A stretch of DNA of 31,112 nt from positions 1 through 31,112 of the IMG/VR virus record IMGVR_UViG_3300032323_000879, one strand, 5' to 3'. Both the position numbers and the translations under genes were made by a program. The notes below the pieces were generated by a model. It worked only from the letters and a program-made list of their open reading frames with translations. It searched no databases and was not told where the DNA came from. Of the stretch, positions 7,470 to 30,003 are shown in pieces; positions within the stretch are counted from its first letter, which is position 1, and the number at the start of each line of letters is the position of its first letter. Source of the stretch: a virus.

Positions 7470-8719
7470 TGAGTAAATCCGATTATTCGGTTGATTCCGT
7501 AGTTATAACCAATGTAACTGGAAATGAATTTGAAATAAAAGATTTAGTTACAGGTATTGACATCTATGAATCTTTGTCTTCACCATATATTAAGTGTGAA
7601 TTGGCAATTGCTGATGCTGCAAATATGATTGAGACTATTCCAATCATTGGCCAAGAAAAAATCAAAGTAATTATTAAAGATCTCAATATTGGTAATACAA
7701 TTAAAAGAAACTTTTACATTTCATCAATTCAGAATTATGTAAAAGGTAATAATCAATCTTCTGTTTATATTTTAAAATTAGTAACAGAAGAATTTATGAT
7801 GAATAGTTTATCGTTAGTATCTCAATCATTTACTGGACAAATTAGTCAGTCAATTGATAAAATTTTAAATAATTATTTGAACAGTAAAACTAAAATTACT
7901 GAATCTACAAATGGTGACTATCGATTAATCGTACCAAATTGGAATCCATATAAGGCAATTGATTGGTTAACTAGACGAGCTATTACATCAACTGGTTATC
8001 CGTTTTGTTTTTATGAAACGCTAAAGGATGGCATACACTTTGAATCATATGAATCTATGTTTAACAAAACCATATTTGAAAAATATGTTCATAGATCTAA
8101 TAGTTTAAATAAAGATGATTTAGATCAAACGGCTGCTACTATGAAAACTGCGTTACGATACGATATCACTGAAATGTCAAACACCGGTAAGAATATTTTA
8201 CGTGGTGCTTTTGGTCAATCAATGCACATCATTGATCATGCAAATAAAAGTTATAATTTAGTCAAATACGATTATCAAAAAGACTTTAAAAGAAAAAAGA
8301 GATTAGATAAAAATGCGTTTTTATCAGAGTCTTTTAAAGTTAATAATAAATCTATTTCAGAGTATGATGTAGTTCATAGTGTAGCTTTAAAAAATCCTTT
8401 AGCATATGAATCAAGTAGTTTAAATAATTATAATAACCAAATAGAGTTTACAAAATTAGAATCAGATCCACTAATATATCAACTTGGTTTAATTAAAATT
8501 AATATGACTGTAAAAGGAAGAACTGATTTGAGCGTTGGTAAAGTGATAGACTTTGAAGTAGAAAAGAATAAACCAATATCATCATCTAATCCTAAAAATT
8601 CAAATGAGTATTTAAGCGGAAAATATCTTATACAGAACATTCATCATAAAATGGAAAATGGCATCTATTATATTGTTATGGATATCGTAAGAGAATCTTT
8701 GGGTAAGAAAGCAAAATAA
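7469..8719 (+). CDS. 27: baseplate hub subunit gp27
   Basis: 416 residues, against 391 in T4 gp27. The N-terminal strand pattern (VVITNVTGNEFEIKDLVTGIDIYESL, with SPYIKCELAIAD) and the conserved RFWNxxPYKAIDWLTRRA-like segment (here VPNWNPYKAIDWLTRRAITS, about residues 150-172) are typical of the gp27 hub family. It forms the trimeric torus that adapts tail tube symmetry to the gp5 spike. The next gene is gp5, its physical partner. Confidence 0.8.
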   Translation: MSKSDYSVDSVVITNVTGNEFEIKDLVTGIDIYESLSSPYIKCELAIADAANMIETIPIIGQEKIKVIIKDLNIGNTIKRNFYISSIQNYVKGNNQSSVYILKLVTEEFMMNSLSLVSQSFTGQISQSIDKILNNYLNSKTKITESTNGDYRLIVPNWNPYKAIDWLTRRAITSTGYPFCFYETLKDGIHFESYESMFNKTIFEKYVHRSNSLNKDDLDQTAATMKTALRYDITEMSNTGKNILRGAFGQSMHIIDHANKSYNLVKYDYQKDFKRKKRLDKNAFLSESFKVNNKSISEYDVVHSVALKNPLAYESSSLNNYNNQIEFTKLESDPLIYQLGLIKINMTVKGRTDLSVGKVIDFEVEKNKPISSSNPKNSNEYLSGKYLIQNIHHKMENGIYYIVMDIVRESLGKKAK

Positions 8720-8720
8720 T

Positions 8721-10007: not shown

Positions 10008-10008
10008 T

Positions 10009-11268
10009 ATGGCAAACTTACCTTCTCCTTGTGGGTTAAGTGCTTCCTTAGATGAAGCACTATCTCAGATTGATACTTTAAAACAAAAGATTTCTGGTGG
10101 ATTAAATTCTATTGGAGATCTTGGTGCAATTGCAAATTCGATTAAAGAAAAACTTGGTGAGATTAAAGTTCCTGAAATTCCAGAGTTAGATTTACAAACT
10201 GAATTAGCATCTTTACCATATCTTTCACCTGCTGAATATACTGCAAAAGTTGCTCAATTAAAAACTATATTTGGAAGTAGCGTTGAAAATCTTGATAGTT
10301 TAATTGATAAAATACCAAAGCCTCCAACATTAGCAGCATCTTCTGAAAATTTAGTTGAACAACTAAAAAATCTTGCTGCTGGAAAATTACCAGACACACA
10401 GTCTATTATAGATGCTTTAACTCCTGAAGGTATTGCTAAGGCTATTGGTGATATGTGTAAAGATACACCAAAAGTTGTGGTTGTAGTTACTACAGATGAA
10501 AGTGGAAAAGAAGTTATTGGTCCAGTTCAAACTAAACCCGAATCTACTCCAACGCCAACAAAGAATCCAGAAAAAGAAAAAACACCATCACCTCCTCCAG
10601 CTGGTGGATTTACTTTTGCTTTTACCAAAGAAAAATTAGAAAGAGCTGGTGGAGCCGCTGCAGCAGCATGGTATGATGCGTTTGCAATAACTCTTCCAAA
10701 GTATGGAATAACTACACCAGATAGAGTCGCTGCGTTTGTTGCGCAAATTAGAGTTGAATCTGGAGACTTTAAAGCACTAAAAGAAAATTTAAATTATAGA
10801 GCCAAAGGATATTTTGCAATCTGTGCTAATAGACTTAAACTGTCTGCAGTTGAAGATTGTGCTGTATATTTACAAACAGAAAAACAGACTGCAACTGGAT
10901 TATATGAAAGAGCGATAGGTTCTTCAACTATTCACAATGTTGGTAGGAATCTTGGTAACACAGAAGTTGGTGATGGCCATAAGTTTATTGGTAGAGGTTT
11001 AAAACAATTAACTGGTCGTTTTAATTATACTAGAGCTTCTAAAGATTTATATGGCGATGATAGATTAGTTAAAAATCCAGATTTAGTTGCAACTGATAAA
11101 CAAGTTGCGCTTGAAACCGCTTGTTGGTTTTGGTCTAAAAATAATTTATCAGCCATTGCAGATTCTTGGGATATTACTACATTATCTAAAAAAGTTAATG
11201 GTGGAACTATAGGTTTAGATAAACGTATTTTATATAGTGATCAAGCCCGTACTATCATGAAAGCTTAA
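10009..11268 (+). CDS. tail-associated GH19 muralytic protein
   Basis: 419 residues in three parts: a helical N-terminal region (1-150), a Pro/Thr/Lys-rich linker (about 175-200), and a C-terminal GH19 chitinase/lysozyme-like domain (about 205-419). GH19 signs are FVAQIRVESGDF with the probable catalytic Glu 250, KENLNY with Glu 259, and GRGLKQLTGRFNY (328-340). The usual His before the first catalytic Glu is Val here. The N-terminal part has no signal peptide and probably docks on the baseplate, since the gene sits between gp5 and gp25. Likely roles are local peptidoglycan cleavage during DNA entry or, as an alternative, the lysis endolysin. Confidence 0.8.
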   Translation: MANLPSPCGLSASLDEALSQIDTLKQKISGGLNSIGDLGAIANSIKEKLGEIKVPEIPELDLQTELASLPYLSPAEYTAKVAQLKTIFGSSVENLDSLIDKIPKPPTLAASSENLVEQLKNLAAGKLPDTQSIIDALTPEGIAKAIGDMCKDTPKVVVVVTTDESGKEVIGPVQTKPESTPTPTKNPEKEKTPSPPPAGGFTFAFTKEKLERAGGAAAAAWYDAFAITLPKYGITTPDRVAAFVAQIRVESGDFKALKENLNYRAKGYFAICANRLKLSAVEDCAVYLQTEKQTATGLYERAIGSSTIHNVGRNLGNTEVGDGHKFIGRGLKQLTGRFNYTRASKDLYGDDRLVKNPDLVATDKQVALETACWFWSKNNLSAIADSWDITTLSKKVNGGTIGLDKRILYSDQARTIMKA

Positions 11269-11274
11269 TAAATA
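11267..11274 (+). promoter_or_regulatory. late-promoter-like AATAAATA before gp25
   Basis: AATAAATA overlaps the stop of the GH19 gene and is followed by TAGAT and ATG 11280. A T4-type late start would fall on the A of the ATG. The arrangement matches those at 5388-5373 (minus) and 21137-21152. No good ribosome binding site lies between the element and the start. Confidence 0.3.
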
Positions 11275-11279
11275 TAGAT

Positions 11280-11723
11280 ATGCGTACACAAAATAAATCA
11301 GACTTAGTTCTTAAAGTTGGTAAAGCCAGTATTGTCGCTCAAGATACTCTTTATAGTGATTTAAATTTATCACTTATACCAAATCCGGTAAGTGGTGATA
11401 TTAATCCTATTAAAGACATTGAAGCTATTAAAAAATCAGTGGTTAACTTAATTTTAACTAATTTTTATGAGCGACCATTTCAACCTGAAATTGGTTGTGG
11501 CGTAAGAGGATTGTTGTTTGAATTAGCAGATCCCATTACAATTACCGATTTAGAATATGCAGCTAGACAAGTAATAGAAAACTTTGAACCACGTGTTGCT
11601 GTATTAGATATTAATGCTATTGATGATCCAGATAATAATTCTTATATTATGACAATAGAATTTCAAATTTTATCTAACGAACAAATTGCAGAAGTAACAA
11701 CAATCCTAGAGAGATTACGATAA
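11280..11723 (+). CDS. 25: baseplate wedge subunit gp25
   Basis: 147 residues of the GPW/gp25 family (T4 gp25 is 132). The diagnostic segment is LILTNFYERPFQPEIGCGVR (about 57-76), followed by LLFELADP and a DLEYAARQVIENFEPRV helix, with final beta strands. gp25 forms the core of each baseplate wedge with gp6 and gp53 and initiates sheath assembly. It overlaps the gp6 start by one base (TAATG). Confidence 0.88.
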   Translation: MRTQNKSDLVLKVGKASIVAQDTLYSDLNLSLIPNPVSGDINPIKDIEAIKKSVVNLILTNFYERPFQPEIGCGVRGLLFELADPITITDLEYAARQVIENFEPRVAVLDINAIDDPDNNSYIMTIEFQILSNEQIAEVTTILERLR

Positions 11724-13585
11724 TGGCATCAAATTTAAAAGTCACCGAATTAGACTTTTTTCAAGTACGAGAAAATCTTAAAGATTATTTAAAAACACAA
11801 ACTAAATTCAAAGACTATGACTTTGATGGTTCTGGCATTTCAGTTCTTTTAGATATATTAGCCTATAATACACATTATAATGCAATTAACGCTAATATGG
11901 CAATTAATGAAATATTTTTAGATTCAGCGCAATTGCGAAATAACGTAGTATCACATGCTAAAATGTTGGGATACTTACCAAGATCTATGAACGCATCATT
12001 TGCCCTTATTGATGTATTAGTTAATAATCCAATAGGTAATCCATCTACGTTAACTATTAATAGAGGCACTGAATTTACTACTGTTGTAGATGGTGTACAA
12101 TATACATTTACAGTTTTAGAATCTCAATCTATTTCTCCAGTGAACGGAGTTTACACATTTGAAAATTTAAAAATTAGTGAAGGCAAATTACTTAGTTATT
12201 CACACACTGTTGATAGTTTTGATAATGCGCAATATTTTAATATTCCAGATCCTTCGATTGATACTTCTTCACTAGTGGTTAAAGTAAAAGATAATAATAC
12301 AACCACTTCATATGATGTGTATACTATTGTTAGAAACTTTGTTGAAATTGATTCTAATACTAAGGCATACTTTTTACAAGAAGGTGTTGATGGAACTTAT
12401 CAAGTTTATTTTGGTGATGGCATTGCTGGTAGAAAACTTCAAGCTGGTAACGTAATAGAGTTAGAGTGGTTAAGTACTAATGGAGCTCTTGCCAATGGCG
12501 CATCAACATTTACGCTATCGACGTCAATTCAAGGTAATTCTAATGTAACAGTTACTACGTTAAGTAAAGCTGTAGCTGGTGGTGATAGAGAAAATATTGA
12601 CTCAATTAAGTTTAATGCACCATTATCATACGTAGCTCAAAACCGCGTTGTTACACCAGACGATTATAAAGCGGCTATCATTAATAACTATCCAAACATT
12701 GAAACTGTTGCTGTGTGGGGTGGTGAAGAAAACGATCCACCAGATTATGGTAAAGCTTACATATCAATTAAACCAAGTAATGCTGAAACATTAAGTCCTA
12801 CTGAAAAACAATTTATTCGTGACCAAATTTTAAAAACGCGTAACGTTGTTTCTATTACACCAGAGTTAGTAGATCCAGAATACACATACATTAAATTAGA
12901 AGTGTTCTTTAAGTATGATCCTAACTTAACTAATAAAACGGCCGGCGAATTGCGCCAAGTTGTGTCAGATGTAATTAGTAACTATAATGATACTGAGTTA
13001 AAACAATTTGATGGTGTATTTAGACACTCTAAACTTTTACGATTAGTAGATTTAGCGGATCCAGCTATTTTGAATAGTACTATTCGTGTGTATATGCAAA
13101 AGCGTTTAGTACCAGAAATTGGAATAAGTAAAAAATATACTTTATCCTTTTCTGCCCCATTGTATTCATCGGGTAGTAATGAAAAGATTATTTCATCTAC
13201 TGGATTTACATATAATGGCTTTACACAATACATTCACGATTTACCACAAAATACTAATCAAGTTACTAATGATTTAATAGTACGTCATCCATTACAAATT
13301 TATCGTATTATAGGTGATGCTAAACAAGTAACTATTCAAGATGCAGGTTTTATTATCGCAGAAGAGGGTTTAGTAGTTTTAGAAAATTTTAACCCATCTG
13401 CGTATGATGGTAATTATATTTCAATCTCAGCGCAACCTAACTCAAATGATATTGCGCCAAAACGTAATCAACTATTACAAATTGACATGGGGATTACCAC
13501 TATTAATCCAGAAGTTGATACAATTGCAACCGGTGGATCTATCGCTGGTATTGGTTATAACACAACACCAAGGCATAACGATTAA
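11723..13585 (+). CDS. 6: baseplate wedge subunit gp6
   Basis: 620 residues, close to T4 gp6 (660). The N-terminal block (DFDGSGISVLLDILAYNTHY, ANMAINEIFLDSAQLRNNVV, AKMLGYLPRS) and the DRENIDSIKFNAPLSYVAQN / VVTPDDYKAAI block (about 290-320) are characteristic of gp6/gpJ-type wedge proteins. gp6 dimers form the inner iris ring of the baseplate. It follows gp25, the partner it binds in the wedge. Confidence 0.88.
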   Translation: MASNLKVTELDFFQVRENLKDYLKTQTKFKDYDFDGSGISVLLDILAYNTHYNAINANMAINEIFLDSAQLRNNVVSHAKMLGYLPRSMNASFALIDVLVNNPIGNPSTLTINRGTEFTTVVDGVQYTFTVLESQSISPVNGVYTFENLKISEGKLLSYSHTVDSFDNAQYFNIPDPSIDTSSLVVKVKDNNTTTSYDVYTIVRNFVEIDSNTKAYFLQEGVDGTYQVYFGDGIAGRKLQAGNVIELEWLSTNGALANGASTFTLSTSIQGNSNVTVTTLSKAVAGGDRENIDSIKFNAPLSYVAQNRVVTPDDYKAAIINNYPNIETVAVWGGEENDPPDYGKAYISIKPSNAETLSPTEKQFIRDQILKTRNVVSITPELVDPEYTYIKLEVFFKYDPNLTNKTAGELRQVVSDVISNYNDTELKQFDGVFRHSKLLRLVDLADPAILNSTIRVYMQKRLVPEIGISKKYTLSFSAPLYSSGSNEKIISSTGFTYNGFTQYIHDLPQNTNQVTNDLIVRHPLQIYRIIGDAKQVTIQDAGFIIAEEGLVVLENFNPSAYDGNYISISAQPNSNDIAPKRNQLLQIDMGITTINPEVDTIATGGSIAGIGYNTTPRHND

Positions 13586-13587
13586 TC

Positions 13588-14484
13588 ATGGCCATTACAA
13601 CTGGTAAACAAGATTTTTATTCTTTAAATGCTATTATACCTGAACACATTCGTCAGAATGATGGCAATTTGCACGTATTTTTAGAAGAGTATTTTGAGTG
13701 GATGCAATCCGCTAATAATCAACCTGGTCATATAATTAATACTCTTTTAGATAATAGAAATATTGACAAAGCTTCTATAGAATTTGTTGAATATTTACAA
13801 AGGGAATTTGCTACTTCTATTCCTCAACAAATTCAAGCAGATCCACGCAAATTATATAAGCAAGTTAATGACATTTATCGTTCAAAGGGTTCTATTCCTT
13901 CTTATGAAGCGTTGTTTAATTTATTATTTAATGATGAGATTGAATTATATTACCCTCGTGTAGATTTATTGAAACCTTCAGATGGTAGATGGGACATTGC
14001 ACAAAATCGTTATTTGTCTAACGACGGTTTTATTTCAGATAAAAAGTATATACAAGATAGTAAATATTATCAAAACTTTTCTTATGTAATCAAAACTGGT
14101 CAAACAATTGACTATTGGCGAGATGCGGTTAAGAAATTTTTACATCCAGCCGGTTTTGCCTTTTTCGGACAAGTATTAATACAATCGTTTGCAAATAAAC
14201 GATATGGGCCTCCTCCAGGATTATCTGATCCCCAAGAAGGAAAATTACCAATTATTATATCTTCTGTAAATGCTTCAAGCAGAGGTTTAAGTACTAGATT
14301 ATCATTAGACAAATATGGTCGCAGTTCTAATGCATTAAGTTCGAACTATTTGTATTTTGATCAAAGTAAGTTTATTAATACAGAAGAAAATAGTCGCTAT
14401 GGTGATTTAACATTTAGGGTAGTTAATTCAGGTGCTAAGACTAATTTAACTATACCATCTGATATAATCTTAATAAATAACTAA
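13588..14484 (+). CDS. baseplate wedge-associated protein (gp7 position)
   Basis: 298 residues. It has a conserved N-terminal region: IPEHIRQNDGNLHVFLEEYF, then RNIDKASIEFVEYLQREF, DIYRSKGSIPSYEALFNLLF and a short YYPRVDLLKPSDGRW block (about 16-150). This region recurs in marine T4-like phages in the slot between gp6 and gp8, where T4 has gp7 (1032 residues). It may be a compact functional equivalent of gp7 linking wedge components, but homology to gp7 is not evident to me by eye. A late-promoter-like element for gp8 lies in its last codons. Confidence 0.65.
   Translation: MAITTGKQDFYSLNAIIPEHIRQNDGNLHVFLEEYFEWMQSANNQPGHIINTLLDNRNIDKASIEFVEYLQREFATSIPQQIQADPRKLYKQVNDIYRSKGSIPSYEALFNLLFNDEIELYYPRVDLLKPSDGRWDIAQNRYLSNDGFISDKKYIQDSKYYQNFSYVIKTGQTIDYWRDAVKKFLHPAGFAFFGQVLIQSFANKRYGPPPGLSDPQEGKLPIIISSVNASSRGLSTRLSLDKYGRSSNALSSNYLYFDQSKFINTEENSRYGDLTFRVVNSGAKTNLTIPSDIILINN
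14472..14479 (+). promoter_or_regulatory. late-promoter-like AATAAATA ahead of gp8
   Basis: AATAAATA overlaps the end of the preceding gene. A T4-type start would fall near 14485, giving a 27-base leader before ATG 14512 that contains AAAGGA (14498-14503). This spacing suits a normal led mRNA. AT-rich coding sequence makes chance matches common. Confidence 0.4.
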
Positions 14485-14492
14485 TATAATTT

Positions 14493-14506
14493 AAGTCAAA
14501 GGACTT
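14493..14506 (+). promoter_or_regulatory. small hairpin holding the gp8 ribosome binding site
   Basis: AAGTC (14493-14497), loop AAAG, GACTT (14502-14506). The Shine-Dalgarno AAAGGA occupies the loop and the start of the 3' arm, just before ATG 14512. The stem is only 5 bp, so any effect on translation would be modest. Confidence 0.35.
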
Positions 14507-14511
14507 TATAA

Positions 14512-15816
14512 ATGCCAGCAATTATAACCTCAAAATTTCGATTCCAAAACGCAAAAAACTTAATAACAGATATTTCAAATCCATTTAATAGTTATTATTT
14601 GTTTGTTGCGCGCACTCAACCTTGGACTCCAACTGATACGTCAGTTCCAACCCCTATTGATCGCTTATCAGATGAAACCGAAGCGTGGTCAAACGTTTTA
14701 GCTCTTAAGAGAATTGCAGCTTCTCAAATAAGTCATTGCGCACCTAGATATAACTGGATTTCCGGTACAGTATATACTGAATACGACGATCAGGATGTTG
14801 CATTATCTACTAAACAATATTATGTTGTTACAGATGAATTAAACGTATACAAATGTATTCAAGCAGGCGCTGGAGCATCTTTTATTAAACCAACGGGTAC
14901 AAGTGTAAGCATTAGTAATACGCCATTAGCTGATGGTTATCGTTGGAAATTTATGTTTACTATTACTGGTAATGATGTTAATAAGTTTTTAACTAACTCA
15001 TTTGTTCCAGTTAAAAGATTAACATTAGATGATAACTCAATTCAATGGTCTATTCAAAACGCAGCAATTGATGGTGGAATTCATAGAATTAGATTAACAA
15101 ACGCTGGTTCTGGTTATTCTGCAGCGCCTACAGTAACTATTCGTGGTGATGGTGCTGGTGCTACTGCTACAGCGACTATCACCGGTGGTGTTGTAACTGG
15201 TATTCAAATGGTAAATCCTGGAACTGGTTATACTCGAGCTATGGTAACTCTAAGTGGTGGTTCACCTTCAACTCCAGCTACAGCAAGAGCAGTTATGTCT
15301 CCAGCTGGTGGCCACGGATCAAATCCAATTAATGAGTTGAATGGATTTTATGTAATGATTCAAGTATTATTAGAAGGCGCCGATGGTTCAGGTGACTTTG
15401 TCGTTGATAATGATTATCGTCAATTAGGTATTGTGCGTAATCCATATGATTATGGAACAACGACAGTTGCAACATCTACTACAAAGACTGCGTTAACAGT
15501 TTTAAATCATGGTACAACAACTGGTGGTTCCTTTATTAGAGACGTTATTGTCGTAGGACAAACGTCTGGCGCAGAAGGATACATAACTAGTGTTGATACT
15601 GGATCTATTAAGATTTATCAAAATGATTCTACTGGATATATTCCATTCCAATCTGGTGAAGTTATTAATTTTAGTGGTGTAAGCGCTTCGATTACTTCAA
15701 TCATTAATTCAGAAATTGAAAAATATTCAGGCGAAGTATTGTATATAGAAAATAGAAGCCCTGTTAATAGAGCTTCAAATCAAACAGAAGACGTACGTTT
15801 AGTTGTTGAAATGTAA
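14512..15816 (+). CDS. 8: baseplate wedge subunit gp8
   Basis: 434 residues, longer than T4 gp8 (334). The start (IITSKFRFQNAKN, then YYLFVARTQPW) and the end (SGEVLYIENRSPVNRASNQT, then ED and a final beta strand) correspond to T4 gp8 (IVTSKFRTEKM, SGEMIYMENRPPIIMAMDQT). The middle has an insertion of glycine-rich beta repeats (about 195-260: GSGYSAAPTVTIRGDGAGAT and a second similar unit GTGYTRAMVTLSGG). gp8 dimers form part of the outer wedge. It is preceded by AAAGGA at 14498-14503. Confidence 0.85.
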   Translation: MPAIITSKFRFQNAKNLITDISNPFNSYYLFVARTQPWTPTDTSVPTPIDRLSDETEAWSNVLALKRIAASQISHCAPRYNWISGTVYTEYDDQDVALSTKQYYVVTDELNVYKCIQAGAGASFIKPTGTSVSISNTPLADGYRWKFMFTITGNDVNKFLTNSFVPVKRLTLDDNSIQWSIQNAAIDGGIHRIRLTNAGSGYSAAPTVTIRGDGAGATATATITGGVVTGIQMVNPGTGYTRAMVTLSGGSPSTPATARAVMSPAGGHGSNPINELNGFYVMIQVLLEGADGSGDFVVDNDYRQLGIVRNPYDYGTTTVATSTTKTALTVLNHGTTTGGSFIRDVIVVGQTSGAEGYITSVDTGSIKIYQNDSTGYIPFQSGEVINFSGVSASITSIINSEIEKYSGEVLYIENRSPVNRASNQTEDVRLVVEM

Positions 15817-15831
15817 TTAAGAAAGATACAA

Positions 15832-18800
15832 ATGACATTAAAGGTCTATAACTCAGATCCATATTTTGATGACTATAGCAACGATAAAAAGTTTTATCGT
15901 ATTCTATATCGTCCAGGCGTTGCAGTTCAAGCGCGTGAACTTACACAAATGCAGACTATTATTAATGAGCAAGTTGCTCGTTTTGGTAGACATATGTTTG
16001 AAGAAGGCGCAATGGTTATTCCAGGTGGAACAACTATTGATTTAGAATATGGTTATGTAAAGATTAACGATTTAGCTCCTAATGGTTCTGATGTTGCAAC
16101 ATATGTTGATGAATTTATTGGAACAACTATAACTAGTCAAACTTCTGGATTGAATGCTAAGGTTGTTTCAGTTACTCCAGCTACTAATACGGATCCAATT
16201 ACACTATTTGTTAAATATAGTGATTCTGGTACAAATAAAACAACTAAAACATTTGCTGCTAATGAAATTCTTTTGTCGGATGGCGTAAATATTCGTGAAT
16301 GTCAGATTAGATCAGCGATTGATAGCGTAGGTTTTGGTTCTGCAGTTTCAGTTGCACGAGGTGTATATTTTGTTTCAGATATGTTTGTTTTAGTAGAAGA
16401 TCAAACAATCATTTTAGAAAAATATAACACAACTCCAACATATAAAGTTGGTTTTACGATTAGTCAAAATATTATAACGTCACAAATTGATCCAAGCTTA
16501 AATGATAACGCTAATGGTTCTCCAAACTATGCTGCTCCAGGTGCACATCGCTATAACATTAATTTAGTATTATCAAAAAGAGCATTAACTGCTGATACTG
16601 AAAACTTTGTTCAGATTATGCAAGTTGAAGATGGTGTTATTCGCTCAAAAGTAAATGCAACACAATATTCTGTTATTGAAGAAACTTTGGCTCGTAGAAC
16701 GTATGACGAATCTGGTAATTATACAGTTAAGTCATTTAATATCGAAGTTCGTGAGCACTTAAAAAATGGCGACAATCGTGGTATATTTACTGCAGCTAAT
16801 GGTGGACTTGAGTCTAAATTAGCTATTGGTATGGAAGCTGGTAAAGCATATGTTCGTGGATTTGAAATTGGAACATTAGCCACTAACTATATACCTGTCG
16901 ATAAGTCACGTGAATTTTCATCTGATAACAACGTTGCTATTCCATTTAACCTTGGTGCATTTGTAAATATTACGAATTTGTATGGTGCACCAAACATTAC
17001 AACATTCCCAATTGTTTCATTAAGAAACGCTACAGTTAGCGTTGGTGGAACTGCTCCTGGAACAGAAATTGGTACTGCGCGAGTTAGAGCAATTGAACAT
17101 TTCTCTGGAGTATTAGGTAATTCTGCAGCAACATACCGTTTCTTCTTGTTTGACATTAGGATGAATAGTGGACAAAACTTTTCATCTGTAAGAGCAGTTT
17201 CTGTAGCTGGAACTCCTCCTACTACAGCTAACATCATATTAGATTCTGGAAATGCAGTTCTTCAAGGAACTTCTGCAAATAGTTTATTAGTACGTATGCC
17301 ATACGATGTTATTAAAACTATTCGTGGTATTGGTGGTACTATTGATACTAACTACTCAGTTAGACGTGTTTACACAGGTTCATTATCAAACGGACAAGTA
17401 CAATTAACTGCTGGTGTTAATGAACAATTTATTACTCCGTATTCTAGTCGCGACTTTTTAATGGTTCGCAATGATAATGGAGCAATCATTAATCTTGATT
17501 CAGCTTATACTGGTCTTGGTGGTGGATCGCGTGTTGTATTATCTGGTACTCCAAATGGTAAAAATATTCTTATTAAGTTAGATGACCTAGGCTTAACGAC
17601 GCAAGCATTTACATTAATCGCAACAATTTATAAACAAGAAGCGATTGAAAAGCAAAAAACATTAGTAAGTGATTTTAACTTTAATATTACTTCTCCAAAT
17701 ACAACACCTGGCAACTTTGATTTGCTTAACAAAGCAGACATTTATAAACTAAAAGCAGTTTATATGTCTACTAGTATGAGCGTTAACGCAACAACAACTA
17801 GTCAAAATGTTACAGATCGTTATCAATTAGATGATGGACAGCGCGATAACTTCTATGACATTGGACGTATTACGCTTAAGACTGGTCAACCGGCTCCTTC
17901 CGGACGCTTATTAGTTGTGTTTGACTATTTCACACATGGTGCTGGTGATTATTTCTCAGTAGATTCATACACTGGTCAAATTCCATATGATGATATTCCA
18001 GTTTATCAATCGCGCTTTGAGTCATTTGCATTACGCGATACATTAGATTTCCGTCCAAGAGAACGTGATGATGGCACATCATTTGTCAACGACGTTGGTA
18101 ACAATATTACTGGTGCGTCTTTAGTTGAAATTCCACGTATTGGTGATAATATACGTACAGACTTTGACTTCTATTTGGCACGTATTGATAAGATTTACTT
18201 AGATGCTAAAGGTAACTTTGGTGTAGTTAAAGGTGTTTCATCATTAACACCTAATGCACCTAAAGATCCTGATGACGCAATGGTTTTATATGAAGTAGCT
18301 CTTAAACCATATACGTTTGGACCACAAGACGTTATTCCTACGCTAATTGATAATCGTCGTTACACAATGCGAGACATTGGCCGTTTAGAACAACGTATTA
18401 AGAACCTTGAGTATTACACTTCTCTTTCATTGCTTGAAAAAGAAACTGCTGACTTACAAATTCTCGATAATAACAATATCGATAGATTTAAGAACGGATT
18501 TATCGTAGATCCATTCTATGGACATAATATTGGTAATCCTGGTGATCCAGATTATTTTATTTCGATTGACGCTGAAAGAGGCGAAGCTCGTCCTCAGTTT
18601 TATGAAGATACAGTACGTTTAGATTATAACGTAGCAGCTTCTTCTAATATTCAAAAAACTGGTGATGTATTAACATTACCATACACTGACGTAACGTTTA
18701 TTAACCAAGCATCAGCTTCTCGCACTGAATTTGTTAATCCATTTGACGTAATTAGTTTTATTGGCATTATGGATCTTTCACCTAGTTCAGACGATTGGAA

Positions 18801-22429: not shown

Positions 22430-22939
22430 ATGATTACTCATGATGAAGTTGTAGAGTTTCTCCACAACCCTTTGGCATACGAACAAAATCTAGTTTCAAA
22501 GATAAATTCTAAGGGGGAGCAAATCCTCCTTAGTTCGTTTAAAGATCTGTATGATAGTGAACCACGCAGCATTAAGATCGAAGGCATGGAAAGATTCTCA
22601 AAAAATGTTTGGGAAAAATGCTTAGAATATGGAAGAATATATAATCATATAGGACCAGTGACGTGTCATGTTTTCTTTGCATATGAAAACTCTCCATCAT
22701 TTGATATGCACACTGATCCAGACGATGTTATAATATATTGTTGTAGTGGCAAAAAAACTATGATAATTGATAATAAACATCATACTATAAATGAAGGTGA
22801 AAGTGTTTACATTCCAGCAAATACTTTTCATCAAGCCTTAAATGAATTTGCTGCAGTAACTTTAAGTTTTGGTTTAGAAAAATTTTTGAAAGATAAAGCT
22901 ATTAATTATGAATTGGGCATTATATCTAAAGACTACTGA
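22430..22939 (+). CDS. JmjC/cupin-like Fe(II) oxygenase
   Basis: 169 residues with a double-stranded beta-helix pattern. Candidate Fe(II) ligands are H94 and D96 in DMHTDPDD (an HxD motif) and H134 in YIPANTFHQALN. Strands IIYCCSGKKTMII and the EGESVYIPA turn fit JmjC-type 2-oxoglutarate hydroxylases that act on protein or peptide side chains. It is short compared with cellular JmjC enzymes, so a metal-binding cupin without hydroxylase activity is the alternative. It overlaps the first radical SAM gene by 32 bases and follows the fibre gene by one base, so the two functions are probably linked. Confidence 0.6.
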   Translation: MITHDEVVEFLHNPLAYEQNLVSKINSKGEQILLSSFKDLYDSEPRSIKIEGMERFSKNVWEKCLEYGRIYNHIGPVTCHVFFAYENSPSFDMHTDPDDVIIYCCSGKKTMIIDNKHHTINEGESVYIPANTFHQALNEFAAVTLSFGLEKFLKDKAINYELGIISKDY

Positions 22940-23966
22940 AACATGCAATTTAAATTGCAAGCATTGTTTTACTAATGGTACCAATGGTCCTAAAATATTT
23001 TGGGATACGAAGAAAGTTACAAATTGGTTAACACGATTCCTTCAATACGTTCAAAAAGACGATATAGTTCATTGTGAATTTCATGGGGGAGAACCATTCT
23101 TAGTTCCAGTATTTCAAATGGAGCAAATGTTTGAAGAATGCAATCATTTACATGAAAACGTTTCATGGGGAGCTACATCTAATTTAGTATTCAAATTATA
23201 CGATGAGCACATTGATCTTATAAAAAATAAATTTAATTTTAGAATAGGTACTTCTTGGGATCCAAAAATTCGTTTTGCTAATAATAAACAATATGAGTTA
23301 TGGCATAAAAACATAAAAACGCTATTATCACATGGTATAACAATTAAGCTTTTTATTAGTGTTACTCAAGACACATTAGACATTGAACCAATCGTATTGC
23401 TAAGATGGATACGTAGACTAGGCGTTCAAGAAGTTTCATTTGAAAGATTAACTAATAATGGTAATGCAAAGCTTTATCCTGACATTTTTCCAAAAAATAT
23501 AGAGCAGGATAAATGGTTCTTAAAAATGCATGAACAAATTGTTAAGTATAACACTAGAAATTGGTTTTCAAATGAATTCTTTGAAACGATTTATGCTAAA
23601 TTTGAGTCAGGTTTTATAAAAGGTTCTACATTCTGTAGAGATTGTGAAGAAAAGATTCTTACATTAAATGCAAATGGATCTATATCTGGTTGTCCAAATT
23701 CAGCACCTGAATTTCAGTTTGGACATATAGATGATAAGATTGAAGATTTAATGTCGTCTCCAAAAAGAATAGAAAACATTGCGTGTGAAAGAAGTAGAGA
23801 TCCTAGATGTTATAGTTGTGATGTATTTGAATATTGTGGAGGTGACTGCCATCAATTGCAATGGCAAGATGATATATGTGGTGCACCAAAAAGTTTAATG
23901 CGTCATTTGTCAACTCTTACACATAAAAAGACTGTGATAAAAATAAAAAGCATCCCCCATGTTTAA
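22908..23966 (+). CDS. radical SAM/SPASM protein maturase A
   Basis: 352 residues. The radical SAM cluster motif C13-x3-C17-x2-C20 (TCNLNCKHCF) and the GGEP SAM-binding motif (60-63) define the TIM-barrel domain. A C-terminal SPASM domain (about 240-330) has Cys at 243, 246, 262, 301, 304, 310, 314 and 324, with LTLNANGSISGCP and CxxCx5CGGDC, enough for auxiliary [4Fe-4S] clusters. SPASM enzymes such as anSME, AlbA and PqqE modify peptides or proteins. It starts inside the oxygenase gene and overlaps the next radical SAM gene by 8 bases, implying coupled expression. The substrate is inferred to be the CHxS-tailed protein at 24971. Confidence 0.88.
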   Translation: MNWALYLKTTETCNLNCKHCFTNGTNGPKIFWDTKKVTNWLTRFLQYVQKDDIVHCEFHGGEPFLVPVFQMEQMFEECNHLHENVSWGATSNLVFKLYDEHIDLIKNKFNFRIGTSWDPKIRFANNKQYELWHKNIKTLLSHGITIKLFISVTQDTLDIEPIVLLRWIRRLGVQEVSFERLTNNGNAKLYPDIFPKNIEQDKWFLKMHEQIVKYNTRNWFSNEFFETIYAKFESGFIKGSTFCRDCEEKILTLNANGSISGCPNSAPEFQFGHIDDKIEDLMSSPKRIENIACERSRDPRCYSCDVFEYCGGDCHQLQWQDDICGAPKSLMRHLSTLTHKKTVIKIKSIPHV

Positions 23967-24960
23967 TGCATATGAGCGTTATGGTGATCCATATAAATTA
24001 GTTGAATTTAGAATGATGATATTGAATCATTGTTCTATGGATTGTCGTGGTTGTTTTTATAAAAGAACAGATAATAATTTTAATGATTTTTCTTCAGCCT
24101 ATAAGTTGGCTGAAGATTTAGTTAATAACGATTATAAACTTGAAACGTGTTATTTACTTCCAACTGACATTTTTGATAATCCAGACAATTATAAGTTATT
24201 AGATAACAAAGACTTTCAAAATACATTAAAGATGTTTTCATACGTTGGAATTGCATCAACAATAGAAACTGAGTTTGATCATAACTTTTTTGAACTTATT
24301 AATAATATTAGCGCAGAATTAAAAATTGAATTGCAAATTAATTTATTAATTGCAAAACTCTTTGACATAAATTATCAAATTATTTTAAAAAGTAGAATTA
24401 AAGCTATTAAAGAAAAATACGGAGATAGGATAGTTATTAACTTAGCAATTAATACGGGATTTTCATTAAGCAATAATGAAAAGGAAAAACTAAAGTCTTT
24501 AATTAGCTTTTTATCAGATGATGAAATAATAGAACTAAATTTTACTTTCTTATATAATAAAGAAATATCTTTAGATAAAAAGAAAAATATGTTAAAAGAA
24601 AGCATAAAAATCATTAATGAATTTGGTGATTTTTATGAATCAAATAATGAATTCAAAACAAAATATAATAATAGAACATTATTAAGAAAACCAGCTTTTT
24701 CCTTTGTTGGTAATCCAAATAGAATATATTTAAATCCTATTATACCATTTGACGAATATGTGTATATTGATGATGCAGCATTTTTAGTCGACGGGACAAC
24801 ATATGATGATTTTTTAAACACATATGGACAATTGCAAGATATAAATAGTACAATATTAGACAAGTGTAATAACTGTGATAATCTTAGTCATTGTCTTGGT
24901 AAAAGTTATTTTACAATTGCAAATAAATTCGATTTAAAATGTTTTATGGATATAAACTAA
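23959..24960 (+). CDS. divergent radical SAM protein, short C-terminal Cys set
   Basis: 333 residues. The radical SAM motif is C25-x3-C29-x2-C32 (HCSMDCRGCF). No GGEP-like motif is obvious. The C-terminus has C303-x2-C306-x5-C312-x15-C328, probably one auxiliary cluster, which is smaller than a full SPASM domain. The middle is Lys/Ile/Asn-rich. It is coupled to maturase A by an 8-base overlap and is immediately followed by the CHxS-tailed protein. The protein at 28900 shares the same Cys layout (x16 instead of x15), so the two form a distinct subfamily here. Exact chemistry unknown. Confidence 0.75.
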   Translation: MFNAYERYGDPYKLVEFRMMILNHCSMDCRGCFYKRTDNNFNDFSSAYKLAEDLVNNDYKLETCYLLPTDIFDNPDNYKLLDNKDFQNTLKMFSYVGIASTIETEFDHNFFELINNISAELKIELQINLLIAKLFDINYQIILKSRIKAIKEKYGDRIVINLAINTGFSLSNNEKEKLKSLISFLSDDEIIELNFTFLYNKEISLDKKKNMLKESIKIINEFGDFYESNNEFKTKYNNRTLLRKPAFSFVGNPNRIYLNPIIPFDEYVYIDDAAFLVDGTTYDDFLNTYGQLQDINSTILDKCNNCDNLSHCLGKSYFTIANKFDLKCFMDIN

Positions 24961-24970: not shown

Positions 24971-25600
24971 ATGGCTAGTGCTGGTAATTTAGTAACTAAA
25001 CAAACTATTATTAATGATTTTTTCGCTACTGTTATAGCACCAGCTCCAAGAGCAAATGCTTGGCACAAAGCTAACATTCCAACATTTAATTCTGCGTTCA
25101 GTGGTGCTTGGGGAACATTTGACCATAGGGTAACTGTTACTCCTTTTTCAATTATAGGTGCTACTACTCCGTCTGGAACTGTTGTAGATGTTTTAACGGA
25201 ATCGACGACTGGAATGTCTGCTCCTTCACAAGCTGATTTAAATACGATTAATATAACGGCAAGTAATATTGTTTCTGTATTAAGAAATTATGCGTATAAT
25301 ACTTCTCGTGTTAGATTAGTTCGCGCTGGAATATATTATAATAATACGACATATGGCGGAAGTGGAGTTTTTAATGAGCAAGTTAATTATGCGCATTTAA
25401 ATGATAATTACCTACGAACTGAACCGTTGAATGTCGCAGGTCCAGTAGTAAACCAAACTATCATTGCAACTCAACTTGATAATTTTTATAGCTCACTTAG
25501 ATCTGCAGCAAACACTGACACATATGGTGATATTTTAGATTTACGCATATGTCATCAATCATGTCACTATTCATGTCATAGTTCTAGAGGAAGAAGATAA
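24971..25600 (+). CDS. small structural-like protein with C-terminal CHxS repeats (putative modification substrate)
   Basis: 209 residues. The first 190 are Ala/Thr/Asn/Ser-rich and beta-like, resembling a phage structural or fibre-tip subunit, and contain no cysteine. All three cysteines lie in the C-terminal repeat CHQSCHYSCHSS (194-205), followed by a basic RGRR end. The repeats are [C-H-x-S] three times, so the tail also reads as three His-x-Ser units, like the targets of the bacterial His-Xaa-Ser (Hxs) radical SAM systems. It lies between two pairs of radical SAM genes. I infer that it is their protein substrate, with the tail as the modified core. A metal-binding tip is the alternative. 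AAGGG (24960-24964) precedes ATG 24971. Confidence 0.7.
   Translation: MASAGNLVTKQTIINDFFATVIAPAPRANAWHKANIPTFNSAFSGAWGTFDHRVTVTPFSIIGATTPSGTVVDVLTESTTGMSAPSQADLNTINITASNIVSVLRNYAYNTSRVRLVRAGIYYNNTTYGGSGVFNEQVNYAHLNDNYLRTEPLNVAGPVVNQTIIATQLDNFYSSLRSAANTDTYGDILDLRICHQSCHYSCHSSRGRR
25550..25585 (+). repeat. three tandem 12-bp repeats encoding CHxS
   Basis: Units at 25550-25561, 25562-25573 and 25574-25585 each encode Cys-His-x-Ser. The Cys codon is TGT in all three; His is CAT, CAC, CAT; the variable residues are Gln, Tyr, Ser. The mix of silent changes and kept residues suggests selection at the protein level. Confidence 0.85.
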
Positions 25601-26659
25601 ATGTTTCACCTATTTAATTCAGTCTATATAGACTTTGATTTTTGCTTTGAGCCAATGGGTAAGGATTTTATATTAGCATCTGATATTTTTGGTAGTATGC
25701 CAATGGTAACAGTGCAGAACAATGAGGCGTATAAATCTCAGCCTTCATTTGAAGATTTAATTAAAGAAAGTTTTTCTAATAACAAAGAACTCTTATGGAA
25801 AAACTTAATTAATAGATCTAAAAAAGTTGTTTTATATGTAAAACCTGAAAAATTATATGAACTACAAATTGAGTTTTTAAAAAGTGTGTTTGAATATGCT
25901 GAATGCAAAGATTTATATAAAATACATGTTTCATTTATTGAAAGCATAAGACTAAGATCGTATTATGAAGTTCGTGATAAAGATTCTCGTAAGCAAATAA
26001 TTTTAAACACAATTCACCCATTACAATATGCACAGTTTGAAGAAATTTATAATAACACGGAGATATCTAAGACGTTGCAAAGGGTAGATAAAACTGCTTT
26101 ATCTTTTGAATACTTATTAGCAGATTACTTATACAATTCTTCAACAAAATATAAACATGCACTATTATCTAAAATAGAAGTTATGACTTGGGATAATTGG
26201 TTAGATGAATTAGAACAATTGAAATATGAAATCATATTTGGTTCATTAAATTTGAATCGCATAGACCCAAATTTAAGTTTAGAGATCGGTAATATTGAAG
26301 AACAATTGTCAAATAGTGATACATTAAAATGGGCCGTTGATCGTAACTTTACACACAATAGAAAATATATAAAATCTACATACGATTATAAAACGTTTGA
26401 TCCACTATGGAAAGACATATATGAAATATACTCCGGTCAAGAAAAAATGGATGATTTGAACGAATTGATTAATACAAATCAATACGAAAAACTACTTTGG
26501 CGTGACATTGATAGGGGTTTTGGTTGCACATACACCGGTGAAATGTTTAAAACTAAATCTAACCACGTATTTGCAACGTATTGTTACACCGTAGTTAAAT
26601 CAGAAAATAAAGATGAATTAGCACCATTTAGATTAGATGATACAAGTAATCAAAGTTGA
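25601..26659 (+). CDS. unknown protein of the radical SAM block (352 aa)
   Basis: 352 residues starting directly at the base after the CHxS gene's stop. I recognise no domain. It has a FCFEP segment near the N-terminus, a helical middle rich in Lys/Glu/Leu (about 45-125), a HPLQYAQFEE stretch, and an aromatic C-terminal part (LLWRDIDRGFGCTYTGEMF, about 302-320). There is no cluster-type Cys motif and no membrane segment. It overlaps the next oxygenase gene by 23 bases. Its tight linkage suggests a leader-binding, scaffold or chaperone partner of the maturases, but that is position-based inference only. Confidence 0.65.
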   Translation: MFHLFNSVYIDFDFCFEPMGKDFILASDIFGSMPMVTVQNNEAYKSQPSFEDLIKESFSNNKELLWKNLINRSKKVVLYVKPEKLYELQIEFLKSVFEYAECKDLYKIHVSFIESIRLRSYYEVRDKDSRKQIILNTIHPLQYAQFEEIYNNTEISKTLQRVDKTALSFEYLLADYLYNSSTKYKHALLSKIEVMTWDNWLDELEQLKYEIIFGSLNLNRIDPNLSLEIGNIEEQLSNSDTLKWAVDRNFTHNRKYIKSTYDYKTFDPLWKDIYEIYSGQEKMDDLNELINTNQYEKLLWRDIDRGFGCTYTGEMFKTKSNHVFATYCYTVVKSENKDELAPFRLDDTSNQS

Positions 26660-27071
26660 GATACCAGAAACATTATTAAATTTAGTTGATAATTTTGATG
26701 ATGATGGTTTAAGAGATTTCCTCGGTGCATTTAATTACACCGAGGAATTTCAGTCTTGGGCTAGACGATATATTGTATTTGATAAATTAGTAAAAAATTG
26801 GATTAACTATACTAAGTACGATCTTGTAACTGATAATTCTTTCACATGGCATGACGATATACATAGAAAAGGATCTACTTTAGGTATATTATGGTTAGAT
26901 GGTTCTATTGGATATGGTGGTGATCTTTTAGTCATGGATGATAATTGCGAAATACATCGCATAATATTTGAACCAAACACACTAATTATTATGGAGAATA
27001 AATTCCCGCATAAGGTAGAACATTATTTTGGAAGTGAACCAAGAGTTGCGTTGAATTTTACACTAAAATGA
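26637..27071 (+). CDS. 2OG-Fe(II) oxygenase, prolyl 4-hydroxylase-like
   Basis: 144 residues. Predicted facial triad: H72 and D74 in FTWHDDIHR and H125 in KFPHKVEHYF; R136 (GSEPRVALNF) is the expected 2-oxoglutarate anchor. Strands LGILWLDGS and GGDLLVMDD fit the P4H fold. Such enzymes are common near fibre genes in marine T4-like phages and hydroxylate protein side chains or small molecules. It overlaps the next radical SAM gene by 4 bases, mirroring the oxygenase/SPASM order at 22430-22908, although the two oxygenases belong to different subfamilies. Confidence 0.75.
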   Translation: MIQVIKVEIPETLLNLVDNFDDDGLRDFLGAFNYTEEFQSWARRYIVFDKLVKNWINYTKYDLVTDNSFTWHDDIHRKGSTLGILWLDGSIGYGGDLLVMDDNCEIHRIIFEPNTLIIMENKFPHKVEHYFGSEPRVALNFTLK

Positions 27072-28192
27072 ATATATTTACAAATGAGTTTAATGTTATC
27101 TATGTAAGAGTAGTACAGGGATGTAATTTAAATTGCACACACTGCTTTACATTAGGTAATAAAGATCCATATATGCTTACTAATATGACATATATAAAAG
27201 ACTTTTTATCTTCTATAAAAGATAATGTCGATCCTCAAAAGGCTACATTTTATATTCATGGTGGTGAAACATTCCTTGCGCCATTTTCCCATTTATCAGA
27301 AGTTAATAATACGATTAGATCCATTTTTCCGGAAATGAAAATGGATATTATACCCCAAACAAATTTATTGTATAATATTGATGATGAGTTTATAAAATTT
27401 CTTAAAGATGAATACAGATCTACAGTTGGAGTATCTTGGGATGCAGACATTAGATTTGGATCAATTGCAATTAACAAGAAAACTGATCAAGAAAATTTGT
27501 TTTTTAATAACTTAAAAACTTTACTACAAAATGACATTAAAGTGCATATATCAATTACTGCACAAAAGCATTTATTGAATTACGACCCATTAGAAATTGT
27601 AAAAATGTTTGATGGAGTAGATTCTATTGATTTTGAATTATTAACTACTTTTGACGAGCAAACGCGCAATTTAAAACCTAATAACAAAAAGTGGGCTATT
27701 TGGTTAGAAAAGATTGTAGATTATTATCAACATAATAAAACTACGTGGTGTTTACCTCAAATTGATCTTTTTACAAAAACACTATTAACTGGTAACCTAT
27801 TTGATTGTAAGTGTAATTGTTGCGATAAAAGAACATTCACATTAAACCCAAATGGTACTGTAGGTTTATGTCCAGATAAAACGTATGTTGAACCATTTTC
27901 AAATACTGAAGAAATGAGAAATAACTGGGATACGTTCCAAGAAAAATCATTAGATGTTATGATGAAAAAGCTTATAGAAATGGATCAACATACTATGTGT
28001 TTTACATGCGAGCATTACGACATTTGTGGAGGTAATTGTGACGCTAGTCTTTTCGATGAAACTGACGAGTGTCCATTATCAAAAAGCGTTATAAGTAAAA
28101 TAAGAAATAATAAAGAAGTATTCATAAAACTTTATGAAGAAAAAGCAAAAGTGAATTTAACTGAATTAAGGACGAATTATGAAATACATTAA
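27068..28192 (+). CDS. radical SAM/SPASM protein maturase B
   Basis: 374 residues. The radical SAM motif is C19-x3-C23-x2-C26 (GCNLNCTHCF), with HGGET (64-68) in the GGEP position. The SPASM region (about 245-340) has Cys at 247, 249, 251, 252, 268, 311, 314, 320, 324 and 335, with FTLNPNGTVGLCP and CxxCx5CGGNC. It is clearly paralogous to maturase A: shared CNLNCxHCF, HGGExFL, SWDxxIRF, NxNGxxxxCP and YCGG/ICGG blocks. It overlaps both neighbours (4 bases upstream, 14 downstream). It probably modifies a protein or peptide; the second copy may act on another residue or another substrate. Confidence 0.88.
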   Translation: MNIFTNEFNVIYVRVVQGCNLNCTHCFTLGNKDPYMLTNMTYIKDFLSSIKDNVDPQKATFYIHGGETFLAPFSHLSEVNNTIRSIFPEMKMDIIPQTNLLYNIDDEFIKFLKDEYRSTVGVSWDADIRFGSIAINKKTDQENLFFNNLKTLLQNDIKVHISITAQKHLLNYDPLEIVKMFDGVDSIDFELLTTFDEQTRNLKPNNKKWAIWLEKIVDYYQHNKTTWCLPQIDLFTKTLLTGNLFDCKCNCCDKRTFTLNPNGTVGLCPDKTYVEPFSNTEEMRNNWDTFQEKSLDVMMKKLIEMDQHTMCFTCEHYDICGGNCDASLFDETDECPLSKSVISKIRNNKEVFIKLYEEKAKVNLTELRTNYEIH

Positions 28193-28898
28193 TGCTGTTG
28201 CTCCAATAGCAATTGATCAAATTAAAGAATATTTCAAAGATAAGAATACACTATTTGTTATTGACTATAACGAAAGCAAACTACAAGATAAAGTGTTTTT
28301 AACATATCTTTCAAATTTAGATATACCGTGCGACATTAATCTTGATACTACACCTAAAGAAAAAGTTTTTCAATTGTTAGCCTCGTATGTTGATATTAAA
28401 AACATTTGCAATATACCTTTATTGAACGTAATGATAGCGGAAATTATTTTAAAATCCGTTGGTGTAAATTCTAATATTATTTTTTCTAAAGAATATTTTA
28501 CTAATGAAGAAATTTACACATTCATTGAAAATAATAGAAATAATCTTGTTAAATGGATTGATTTTATCGATTCATCAATGGTATTTTTACTTTATAGTTA
28601 TAAAGATTTAAATGAAAAATTAAAGGTTGAAGAATCGTTCCCAATCGTAGATGATCATAACTATGTGGGTTTAAATGTAGTAAATTTATTTAAAATTCCT
28701 GGATTTTTAGAATTATATTTTTCATCTACAAAAGAAGTTAAAATGCTTTACTTTAAACAACAATTTGAAACATACATGTTTAAAGGTAAAGCGTTCTTAG
28801 AATACTACAATAATAATGTTAATGTATTTGTTCCATTATTAGCAAAATTAATTAGTAAAGAATTACCATTAGAACCACAATTCGATATTGAGAAATAA
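28179..28898 (+). CDS. unknown protein of the radical SAM block (239 aa)
   Basis: 239 residues; ATG 28179 is preceded by AAGGA (28168-28172). It is hydrophobic and Asn/Lys/Ile-rich, with cysteines at 53 and 78 that form no motif, and helical stretches such as NIPLLNVMIAEIILKSVG (about 79-96). No domain recognised. It lies between maturase B and the second short radical SAM gene with minimal spacing, so it is part of the same operon. It might be an accessory or substrate-binding subunit; there is no direct evidence. Confidence 0.65.
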   Translation: MKYINAVAPIAIDQIKEYFKDKNTLFVIDYNESKLQDKVFLTYLSNLDIPCDINLDTTPKEKVFQLLASYVDIKNICNIPLLNVMIAEIILKSVGVNSNIIFSKEYFTNEEIYTFIENNRNNLVKWIDFIDSSMVFLLYSYKDLNEKLKVEESFPIVDDHNYVGLNVVNLFKIPGFLELYFSSTKEVKMLYFKQQFETYMFKGKAFLEYYNNNVNVFVPLLAKLISKELPLEPQFDIEK

Positions 28899-28899
28899 T

Positions 28900-30003
28900 A
28901 TGGATGCATATTTAGCTTCTGGAAGTTTAAACGAATCTAATACGTTTTATTTTAATTTAAACTTTGAATTATTAAATGGTTGTCAATTTAACTGTAAAGG
29001 TTGTCACGTCAATAAAAATGGTTCTATGCCAATTGACGATACTAGTTATGCGCAGTTACAAAAGATAATGAATTCGTTTACTCCAGAAAATTCATATAAA
29101 CCATTCATTGCGTTCATAGCTCCTACAGATTTCTTATCTGCAAATAATACATATTCAGTTTTAACTGATAAGCGTGTCATTGAAATTTTAAATAAGTTTA
29201 AAAGAATTTCATTTCAAACCACATATTTGGACATGTCTAAAGCTAGTTTAGTAGCTGACGTATTAAAAGATCATTACTCTAATATGGAGTTAGAAATTAA
29301 CGTAATTATTGAACCGGATAAAATCGAAAATCAAAAATATCTTAGCGTTCTTAAGAAACACCAAGATGAAATGATTGAGTTATTAAAATGGCCTACGAAA
29401 GTAAGATCATTTGGTATTATGAATGTATACGACTACGATAACACCAAATTAGCTCATATATTAAAAGATTATGATTACTTACATCAAAAAGTAAAACACT
29501 TATTCGAAACTACAATTGATTTTAATTTTTCACTAGGTAGAAAAGATCAAAGTTTAACTAAAGAAGAGTTTGAAGATGCAACGAAGAGAATTAAAAACAT
29601 GTTTAATAGTTCTCTAATATCTACTGAAAAAAGTGGTTATTTAAGATTTTCATTTGGTCGATTAAACGACTCATTGGTTGAACGCCAATACAACTGGAAA
29701 AATGGAGAGTTTTATTATTCTCCTCTTTTATATGAAAGATACGTATCATTTGTTGATGAACTTAAAATGCCTATTAATGACTACACTGCAAAAGAGTTTG
29801 AAGAGTTTGAACAGGATGTGCAATTACAACAATATCTCAACGTTTCAGACAAAACCGAATGTGAAGATTGCGCAATGTTAGGTTCATGCGTTGATCGTGG
29901 AATTTTACATTTAATGGATATTCACGGAATAAAAGATTGTTTAGTCGCTAAAGAAGCAATGAGCGTAGTTAACGTTATGGGTACACTCCCATATAATGAC
30001 TAA
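28900..30003 (+). CDS. second divergent radical SAM protein, short C-terminal Cys set
   Basis: 367 residues from ATG 28900, two bases after the previous stop; an in-frame TTG at 28888 lies within the preceding gene and is less likely. Radical SAM motif C28-x3-C32-x2-C35 (GCQFNCKGCH). The C-terminus has C321-x2-C324-x5-C330-x16-C347, the same unusual arrangement as the protein at 23959. A GGEP motif is not evident; IAPTDFL occupies the matching region, as LLPTDIF does in the paralogue. It is probably a radical SAM enzyme working with maturase B. It overlaps the next gene by 8 bases. Confidence 0.78.
   Translation: MDAYLASGSLNESNTFYFNLNFELLNGCQFNCKGCHVNKNGSMPIDDTSYAQLQKIMNSFTPENSYKPFIAFIAPTDFLSANNTYSVLTDKRVIEILNKFKRISFQTTYLDMSKASLVADVLKDHYSNMELEINVIIEPDKIENQKYLSVLKKHQDEMIELLKWPTKVRSFGIMNVYDYDNTKLAHILKDYDYLHQKVKHLFETTIDFNFSLGRKDQSLTKEEFEDATKRIKNMFNSSLISTEKSGYLRFSFGRLNDSLVERQYNWKNGEFYYSPLLYERYVSFVDELKMPINDYTAKEFEEFEQDVQLQQYLNVSDKTECEDCAMLGSCVDRGILHLMDIHGIKDCLVAKEAMSVVNVMGTLPYND

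Follow-up and report, generated by a model that had tools for sequence, protein, structure and literature searches.

What is a phage protein doing with all of its cysteines crowded into a short, repetitive tail at its very end? The protein is encoded in a stretch of 31,112 nucleotides of viral DNA (IMG/VR record IMGVR_UViG_3300032323_000879, positions 1 to 31,112), which we call the window. Its last 16 residues, by translation of the open reading frame, are CHQSCHYSCHSSRGRR, followed by a stop codon at 25598-25600. Three CHxS units precede RGRR, and Cys 194, 198 and 202, the sole cysteines of the 209-residue protein, all lie inside the tail, exactly as first described; LDLRI comes immediately before it. 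The original prediction read this layout as that of a RiPP precursor, likened the units to the His-x-Ser targets of the Hxs radical SAM enzymes, and suggested that the remainder of the protein may be a virion subunit used as a carrier. Most of what is known about radical SAM chemistry on peptides comes from bacterial peptides and cofactors. We consider it likely that the tail serves as a RiPP-like core at the C-terminus of a folded carrier, which is probably borne on the virion and associated with a fiber, and that several radical SAM enzymes, encoded in a dedicated cassette, mature it.

The Gene Cassette

Myophage baseplate genes occupy about 11.7-21.1 kb of the window and are followed by a fiber gene and then by the tail gene and its enzymatic neighbors (Table 1). 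Clustering of 1,493 ORFs from 139 loci gave the order of the cassette: fiber, cupin, radical SAM A, tail protein, the orphan families D20767 and D36207, and radical SAM B, C and D with 2OG oxygenases. E-type radical SAM proteins are added to the cassette in some clades.

Table 1. Features of the window from the fiber gene onward.
Feature	Position	Strand	Remarks
Tail-fiber-like protein, 357 aa	21355..22428	+	phrog_7389 and phrog_19602 tail fiber matches; weak, sub-threshold Peptidase_G2 (IMC) match
Cupin/JmjC-like protein (phrog_8014)	22430..22939	+	conserved immediately upstream of radical SAM A
Radical SAM A with SPASM domain	22908..23966	+	CxxxCxxC and conserved C-terminal Cys
Divergent radical SAM E-type protein	23959..24960	+	CxxxCxxC; adjoins the tail gene in the window's clade
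Tail protein, 209 aa	24971..25600	+	folded alpha/beta body and C-terminal CHxS tail; phrog_35144 family
C-terminal tail CHQS-CHYS-CHSS-RGRR, residues 194-209, proposed modification core	25550..25597	+	tail conservation
Orphan partner family phrog_36207 (D36207)	25601..26659	+	conserved in cassette
Possible 2OG-Fe(II) oxygenase	26637..27071	+	PF13640, E 7e-4, below gathering score
Second radical SAM/SPASM protein, A subfamily	27068..28192	+	nearest curated model YhhB, below cut-off
Orphan partner family phrog_20767 (D20767)	28179..28898	+	in 111 of 139 (often truncated) loci
Second radical SAM E-type protein (phrog_31457)	28888..30003	+	profile match

The tail protein and its two partners fall, by homology only, into three PHROG families without a described function (phrog_35144, phrog_20767 and phrog_36207). 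The phrog_35144 profile matches residues 130-209 of the window protein (E 4.7e-9) and was matched by 41 of the 43 family members tested. D20767 gave a confident AlphaFold2 model, for which Foldseek and VIA-align found no fold match. Two further observations concern gene content. The radical SAM cassette of two Burkholderia jumbo phages (L002, 13387-16616, and L006) includes two adjacent genes annotated as dihydrofolate reductase, and the tail gene of two large contigs (L125 and L121) has additional oxygenase-like and glycosyltransferase-like genes beside it.

Conservation of the Tail and Linkage to Radical SAM A

Searches of named phages with the window tail protein (tblastn) gave no match even at E 10, and short queries made from the tail gave no relatives there either. 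Relatives were reached through the neighboring radical SAM A protein and through a degenerate DNA pattern for CHxxCHxxCHxxRxRR, with an in-frame filter applied afterwards. The pattern scan yielded at least 120 stretches in viral contigs and 88 in genomes; many bacterial matches (Streptomyces, Lachnospiraceae and others) were dropped as chance arginine- or histidine-rich frames. Nearly all in-frame matches, among those listed, stop exactly after RxRR. Together with loci found later, the filtered matches comprise at least 167 distinct proteins with the pattern at the stop codon, in which the invariance of C, H and R is no evidence, since the pattern dictates it; among the matches listed, 123 of the 167 have no cysteine before the tail. 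The positions that the pattern leaves free are more informative. Among the matches listed, position 4 of the units is mostly S or N (S in 152, 132 and 149 of 167 proteins for the three units), and the G of RGRR is kept in 150 of 167. The shared tail is far from chance.

The radical SAM search uncovered homologous loci in Burkholderia phages FLC6 and SURPRISE13, Agrobacterium phage Atu_ph07, Sinorhizobium phage Phosso, Pseudomonas phage DT01 and IMG/VR contigs. In all five annotated records (these five phages, FLC8 being left out), a protein of about 178-306 aa with the same tail is encoded directly after the radical SAM A gene. An unbiased set was formed from 80 loci fetched by radical SAM A alone; these are its closest relatives (about 60% identity or more), so that the choice of loci was independent of the tail but covers no wide range. 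Enough downstream sequence is available for 75 loci of this set, and all 75 have the tail, each with exactly three units; in the other five the contig ends 0-273 bases from the enzyme gene. C and H are kept in every phage tail of the set. Median pairwise identity is 88% for the tails vs. 40% for the bodies, as anticipated for a fixed tail on a varying body, and it is still 81% for the tails of pairs whose bodies are less than 30% identical. At invariant residues, 41% of comparisons show different codons; codon choice is free to vary, which indicates that the constraint acts on the peptide and not on the DNA.

We looked for loci that keep the body and the radical SAM genes while lacking the tail, and found none among the 75 unbiased loci. 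One apparent counter-example, L008, has radical SAM A and no tail, but it shares its gene order with L079, in which the tail genes are located upstream, and its contig stops at that point. In L331 (G156, positions 1-18000) a radical SAM A homolog is present and no tail ORF ending in RxRR was found; the gene is missing there, or its tail is a variant. No such ORF was found next to second copies of radical SAM A on short fragments. In small phages, two tail genes stand in tandem, each encoding about 127 aa. Among 13 records chosen from loci of this type, one of them a bacterial bin (G303), D20767 is present in all and radical SAM A in 11, the other two records being fragments of 33-39 kb. Unit number can also increase, as the original prediction allowed: a 231 kb contig (L041, IMGVR_UViG_3300028797_000096) encodes at 8105-8878 on the minus strand, beside several radical SAM genes, a tail with four units (CHSNCHSNCHSNCHTNRSRR).

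Such linkage might be incidental, the enzymes being auxiliary metabolic genes or acting on the large fiber, and the tail gene a mere neighbor. Two published findings speak for this: the radical SAM cassettes of pelagimyophages lie in the host-recognition region and were treated as add-on genes (PMC7029224), and 12 radical SAM genes occur in a single T4-like genome (PMC5332604). Radical SAM genes also appear in the annotations of FLC6 and PhiRP12/31 (PMC8066314, PMC5468394); the available parts of these four papers do not mention the tail. We nevertheless regard a mere neighbor as very unlikely, as the linkage extends across several unrelated jumbo phages, T4-like contigs, small phages and bacterial chromosomes, often with the tail gene directly after radical SAM A, and as the pattern did not select for position 4 or for the G of RGRR, both of which are conserved. 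The 75 unbiased loci and the conserved cassette order thus bear out the predicted association of the tail with SPASM radical SAM genes.

The Radical SAM Enzymes and Known Systems

In 24 sequences of radical SAM A, the cysteines of CxxxCxxC (C13, C17 and C20) and seven C-terminal cysteines (C246, C262, C301, C304, C310, C314 and C324) are invariant. The protein scores above the cut-off for PF13353 and for the SPASM domain TIGR04085 (36.2 bits, cut-off 27), and just below it for PF04055 (29.2 vs. 29.5 bits). The curated models that match it best are PapB, DynA, a methanogen peptide-modifying enzyme and the anaerobic sulfatase maturase, all far below their cut-offs; radical SAM A therefore lies near peptide-modifying enzymes, yet forms a family of its own. 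For radical SAM D of L007 (16489-17421), the best curated match is prokaryotic viperin (2.1e-9, well below cut-off).

The original prediction had placed the tail beside the Hxs system (HxsA/B/C/D). C-terminal His-x-Ser repeats and several radical SAM enzymes are common to both, and one bacterial tail variant described below ends in HSSHSSHSSHSS. The present system differs in the Cys before each His, the large folded body, the orphan partners and the phage fiber context. Scores set against cut-offs were 33.3/370 bits for HxsB (TIGR03978), 29.7/267.9 bits for HxsC (TIGR03977; the figure is from radical SAM C of L007) and, for the HxsA repeat protein, 16.1/121.65 bits at best, from the variant L330, with no match for the window protein. 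As no Hxs model was reached, the tail system is not a member, and perhaps works like Hxs. Of the RiPP-like reading, the part that rests on conservation, linkage and varying units is supported; the part that assigned the tail to Hxs is not.

The CXXX-repeat radical SAM system likewise has a Cys at every fourth residue near the C-terminus and a SPASM maturase, but the present tail adds a His after each Cys and the RGRR end, and the maturase model TIGR04115 gave only 25.7/350 bits. Membership of the PapB ranthipeptide maturases was also rejected (NF047865, 59.7/340 bits). PapB and the dynobactin maturase DynA (57.6/450 bits against radical SAM A) are nevertheless its closest curated relatives, and both make covalent rings on peptides; their substrates are short peptides, whereas here the protein has 125-364 aa and a terminal core. 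By description, the nearest precursors are those of the proteusin type, which have a long, partly structured leader and a C-terminal core (PMC10858898, in the part available). Here the carrier looks like a structural fiber or virion protein, with no evident cleavage. As in RiPPs, a ribosomally made candidate core is co-encoded with its presumed maturases (75 of 75 unbiased loci). The leader, if the protein is RiPP-like, would be the body of 110-350 aa; no protease or short cleavable leader was recognized among the cassette genes scanned. No description of phage RiPP or phage radical SAM systems was found in the literature searched, preprints and most subscription papers being outside its scope.

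Relatives in Bdellovibrionota

A radical SAM A homolog at E 1e-60 or better was found in 16 of the 290 Bdellovibrionota genomes searched, which is not a random-sample rate, since eight of the 16 (G001-G008) were already known from the pattern scan. Some of the bacterial contigs are from metagenome bins, where misassignment is possible; one homolog lies on a contig of 4.15 Mb, which with other long contigs argues that at least some of the bacterial cassettes are chromosomal. The tails include the canonical form and the forms CHGNFPPPCHGSRGRR, CHTNVPTPPPCHASRGRR, CHSNHCSHSNHGSRGRR, CHSSHSSHSSHSSRGRR and CHSNCYTPPPKSRSRR; CHGNFPPPCHGS has two units, and CHSSHSSHSSHSS a single Cys. Unit number, spacing and Cys content thus vary beside the same enzymes while the R-[GS]-R-R end stays, as would be expected of a repeated core; this extends to mixed units and to HSS repeats the variation in repeat number that had been foreseen. 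The HSS form occurs in L330 (G153, 4346-4918), whose tail CHSSHSSHSSHSSRGRR has His-Ser-Ser repeats with one Cys and comes closest to the HxsA repeats, which gives some added weight to the His-x-Ser reading.

These variants bear on two other explanations. The tail might be an unmodified metal site of three Cys and three His, possibly built by several subunits at the tip of a fiber or spike, with the radical SAM enzymes acting elsewhere. Some phage spikes have a metal ion held by His residues at their tip, and a metal site would suit both the retention of C and H throughout the phage tails of the unbiased set and the scarcity of Cys (0.1%) and His (0.8%) in the bodies. Wide variation in unit number and spacing, down to the two-unit and single-Cys tails, and the near-perfect co-occurrence with radical SAM A make it unlikely. 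Alternatively, the tail could be an attachment signal, which the enzymes couple covalently to another virion or fiber protein or which directs assembly. The R-[GS]-R-R-COOH end is indeed the most constant element, even where the CH units change, and a fiber gene adjoins the cassette in phages and bacteria. Yet a terminal carboxylate signal alone needs no repeated CH units, and no sortase-like or ligase gene was recognized in the cassette; we regard an attachment signal as improbable. A modification core remains the preferred reading: repeated, countable units stand before a fixed basic end, next to SPASM enzymes.

The bacterial loci have fiber-like genes of their own. A pilin-like gene in L217 has an N_methyl match below cut-off and a Peptidase_S74 match above it, and an S74 domain was confirmed in a neighbor gene of L140. 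Similar-looking genes with a pilin start and S74 are recognizable only from sequence inspection and position in L320, L321, L323, L324, L325 and L332. Beside many Bdellovibrionota cassettes lies a companion gene whose product ends in GRHWVKxK; L319 has this companion and a gene with a pilin-like start beside its cassette, as do L320, L321, L323, L324, L325 and L332. A phage-like fiber on a pilus-type anchor is possibly present in these predatory bacteria.

The Body, the Fiber and the Virion

The AlphaFold2 model of the tail protein has an alpha/beta body of moderate confidence (pLDDT 73) and a tail of low confidence. No solved relative of the body was found with Foldseek or VIA-align, which in itself is no evidence for a new fold. 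Viral Foldseek matches were family members and proteins of 500-660 aa from phage ctijX18; in BFVD, three such proteins with a body-like fold (A0A8S5USJ7, USJ8 and USV2) belong to this one phage, Myoviridae ctijX18. The body is rich in T, G, A, N and S. It is split into two ORFs in L018 and L103 and, with equal spacing, in L268, L269, L270 and L273. In L103 the first ORF has a Gly_rich_2 domain (PF21722, 1.8e-10) and a weak tail-fiber match, and the second ends in the tail.

Evidence on virion location comes from Atu_ph07, whose tail protein is FDI40_gp170 (AUZ94952). The major capsid protein, AUZ94997, is called gp215 in the available text of the virion study (PMC6102473); the accession gap of 45 agrees with that from gp170 to gp215, so the numbering matches. 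According to the same text, most virion proteins identified by mass spectrometry fall in CDS 31-76, 170-215 and 284-329 (PMC6102473), and gp170 is the first gene of the second cluster. From this place at the cluster boundary we infer that gp170 was detected in Atu_ph07 virions. Of the proposal that a virion subunit serves as the carrier, the virion part thus gains support, the Atu_ph07 homolog being probably a virion protein. The fiber is the element common to the phage and bacterial loci, which suggests that the tail protein is a fiber accessory or tip.

Proposed Mechanism

The tail protein would be the substrate of a dedicated maturation cassette, as its linkage to the enzymes suggests. Its folded body would act as a carrier that places it on the phage fiber or virion. 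The last 16 residues would form a RiPP-like core, with the three C-H-x-S units as modification sites and the terminal S-R-G-R-R as a recognition or end signal. The Cys/His units would be rebuilt by radical SAM A jointly with the cupin, the 2OG oxygenases and the remaining radical SAM enzymes. The chemistry is conjectural: the product would most likely be thioether or other covalent rings, and, given a modified tail, ring formation at the C-H-x-S units falls somewhat short of an even chance, with oxidation or methylation as alternatives. About five radical SAM enzymes and several oxygenases are a large set for 16 residues, so other substrates may exist. We speculate that the two orphan families, D20767 and D36207, are dedicated partners that present the tail; D20767 is without a known fold and its recognition role stays putative. 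Equally speculative is the fate of the finished tail, which may serve as a stiff, exposed tip or as a point of contact, either on the particle or, in Bdellovibrionota, on a pilus-type fiber.

Significance

The retention of so large a cassette across phages and bacteria implies a heavy viral investment in remodeling a few residues of a single surface protein. The chances are about equal for and against an undescribed, widespread virion modification, in which radical-made covalent structures on the Cys-His repeats of a fiber-tip protein provide a chemically hardened or reactive point of host contact in phages and, through shared descent, in predatory bacteria. The cassette is present in the cultured phages Atu_ph07, FLC6, SURPRISE13, DT01 and Phosso. 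If the proposal is true, many radical SAM genes that are now listed as auxiliary metabolic genes would acquire a function.
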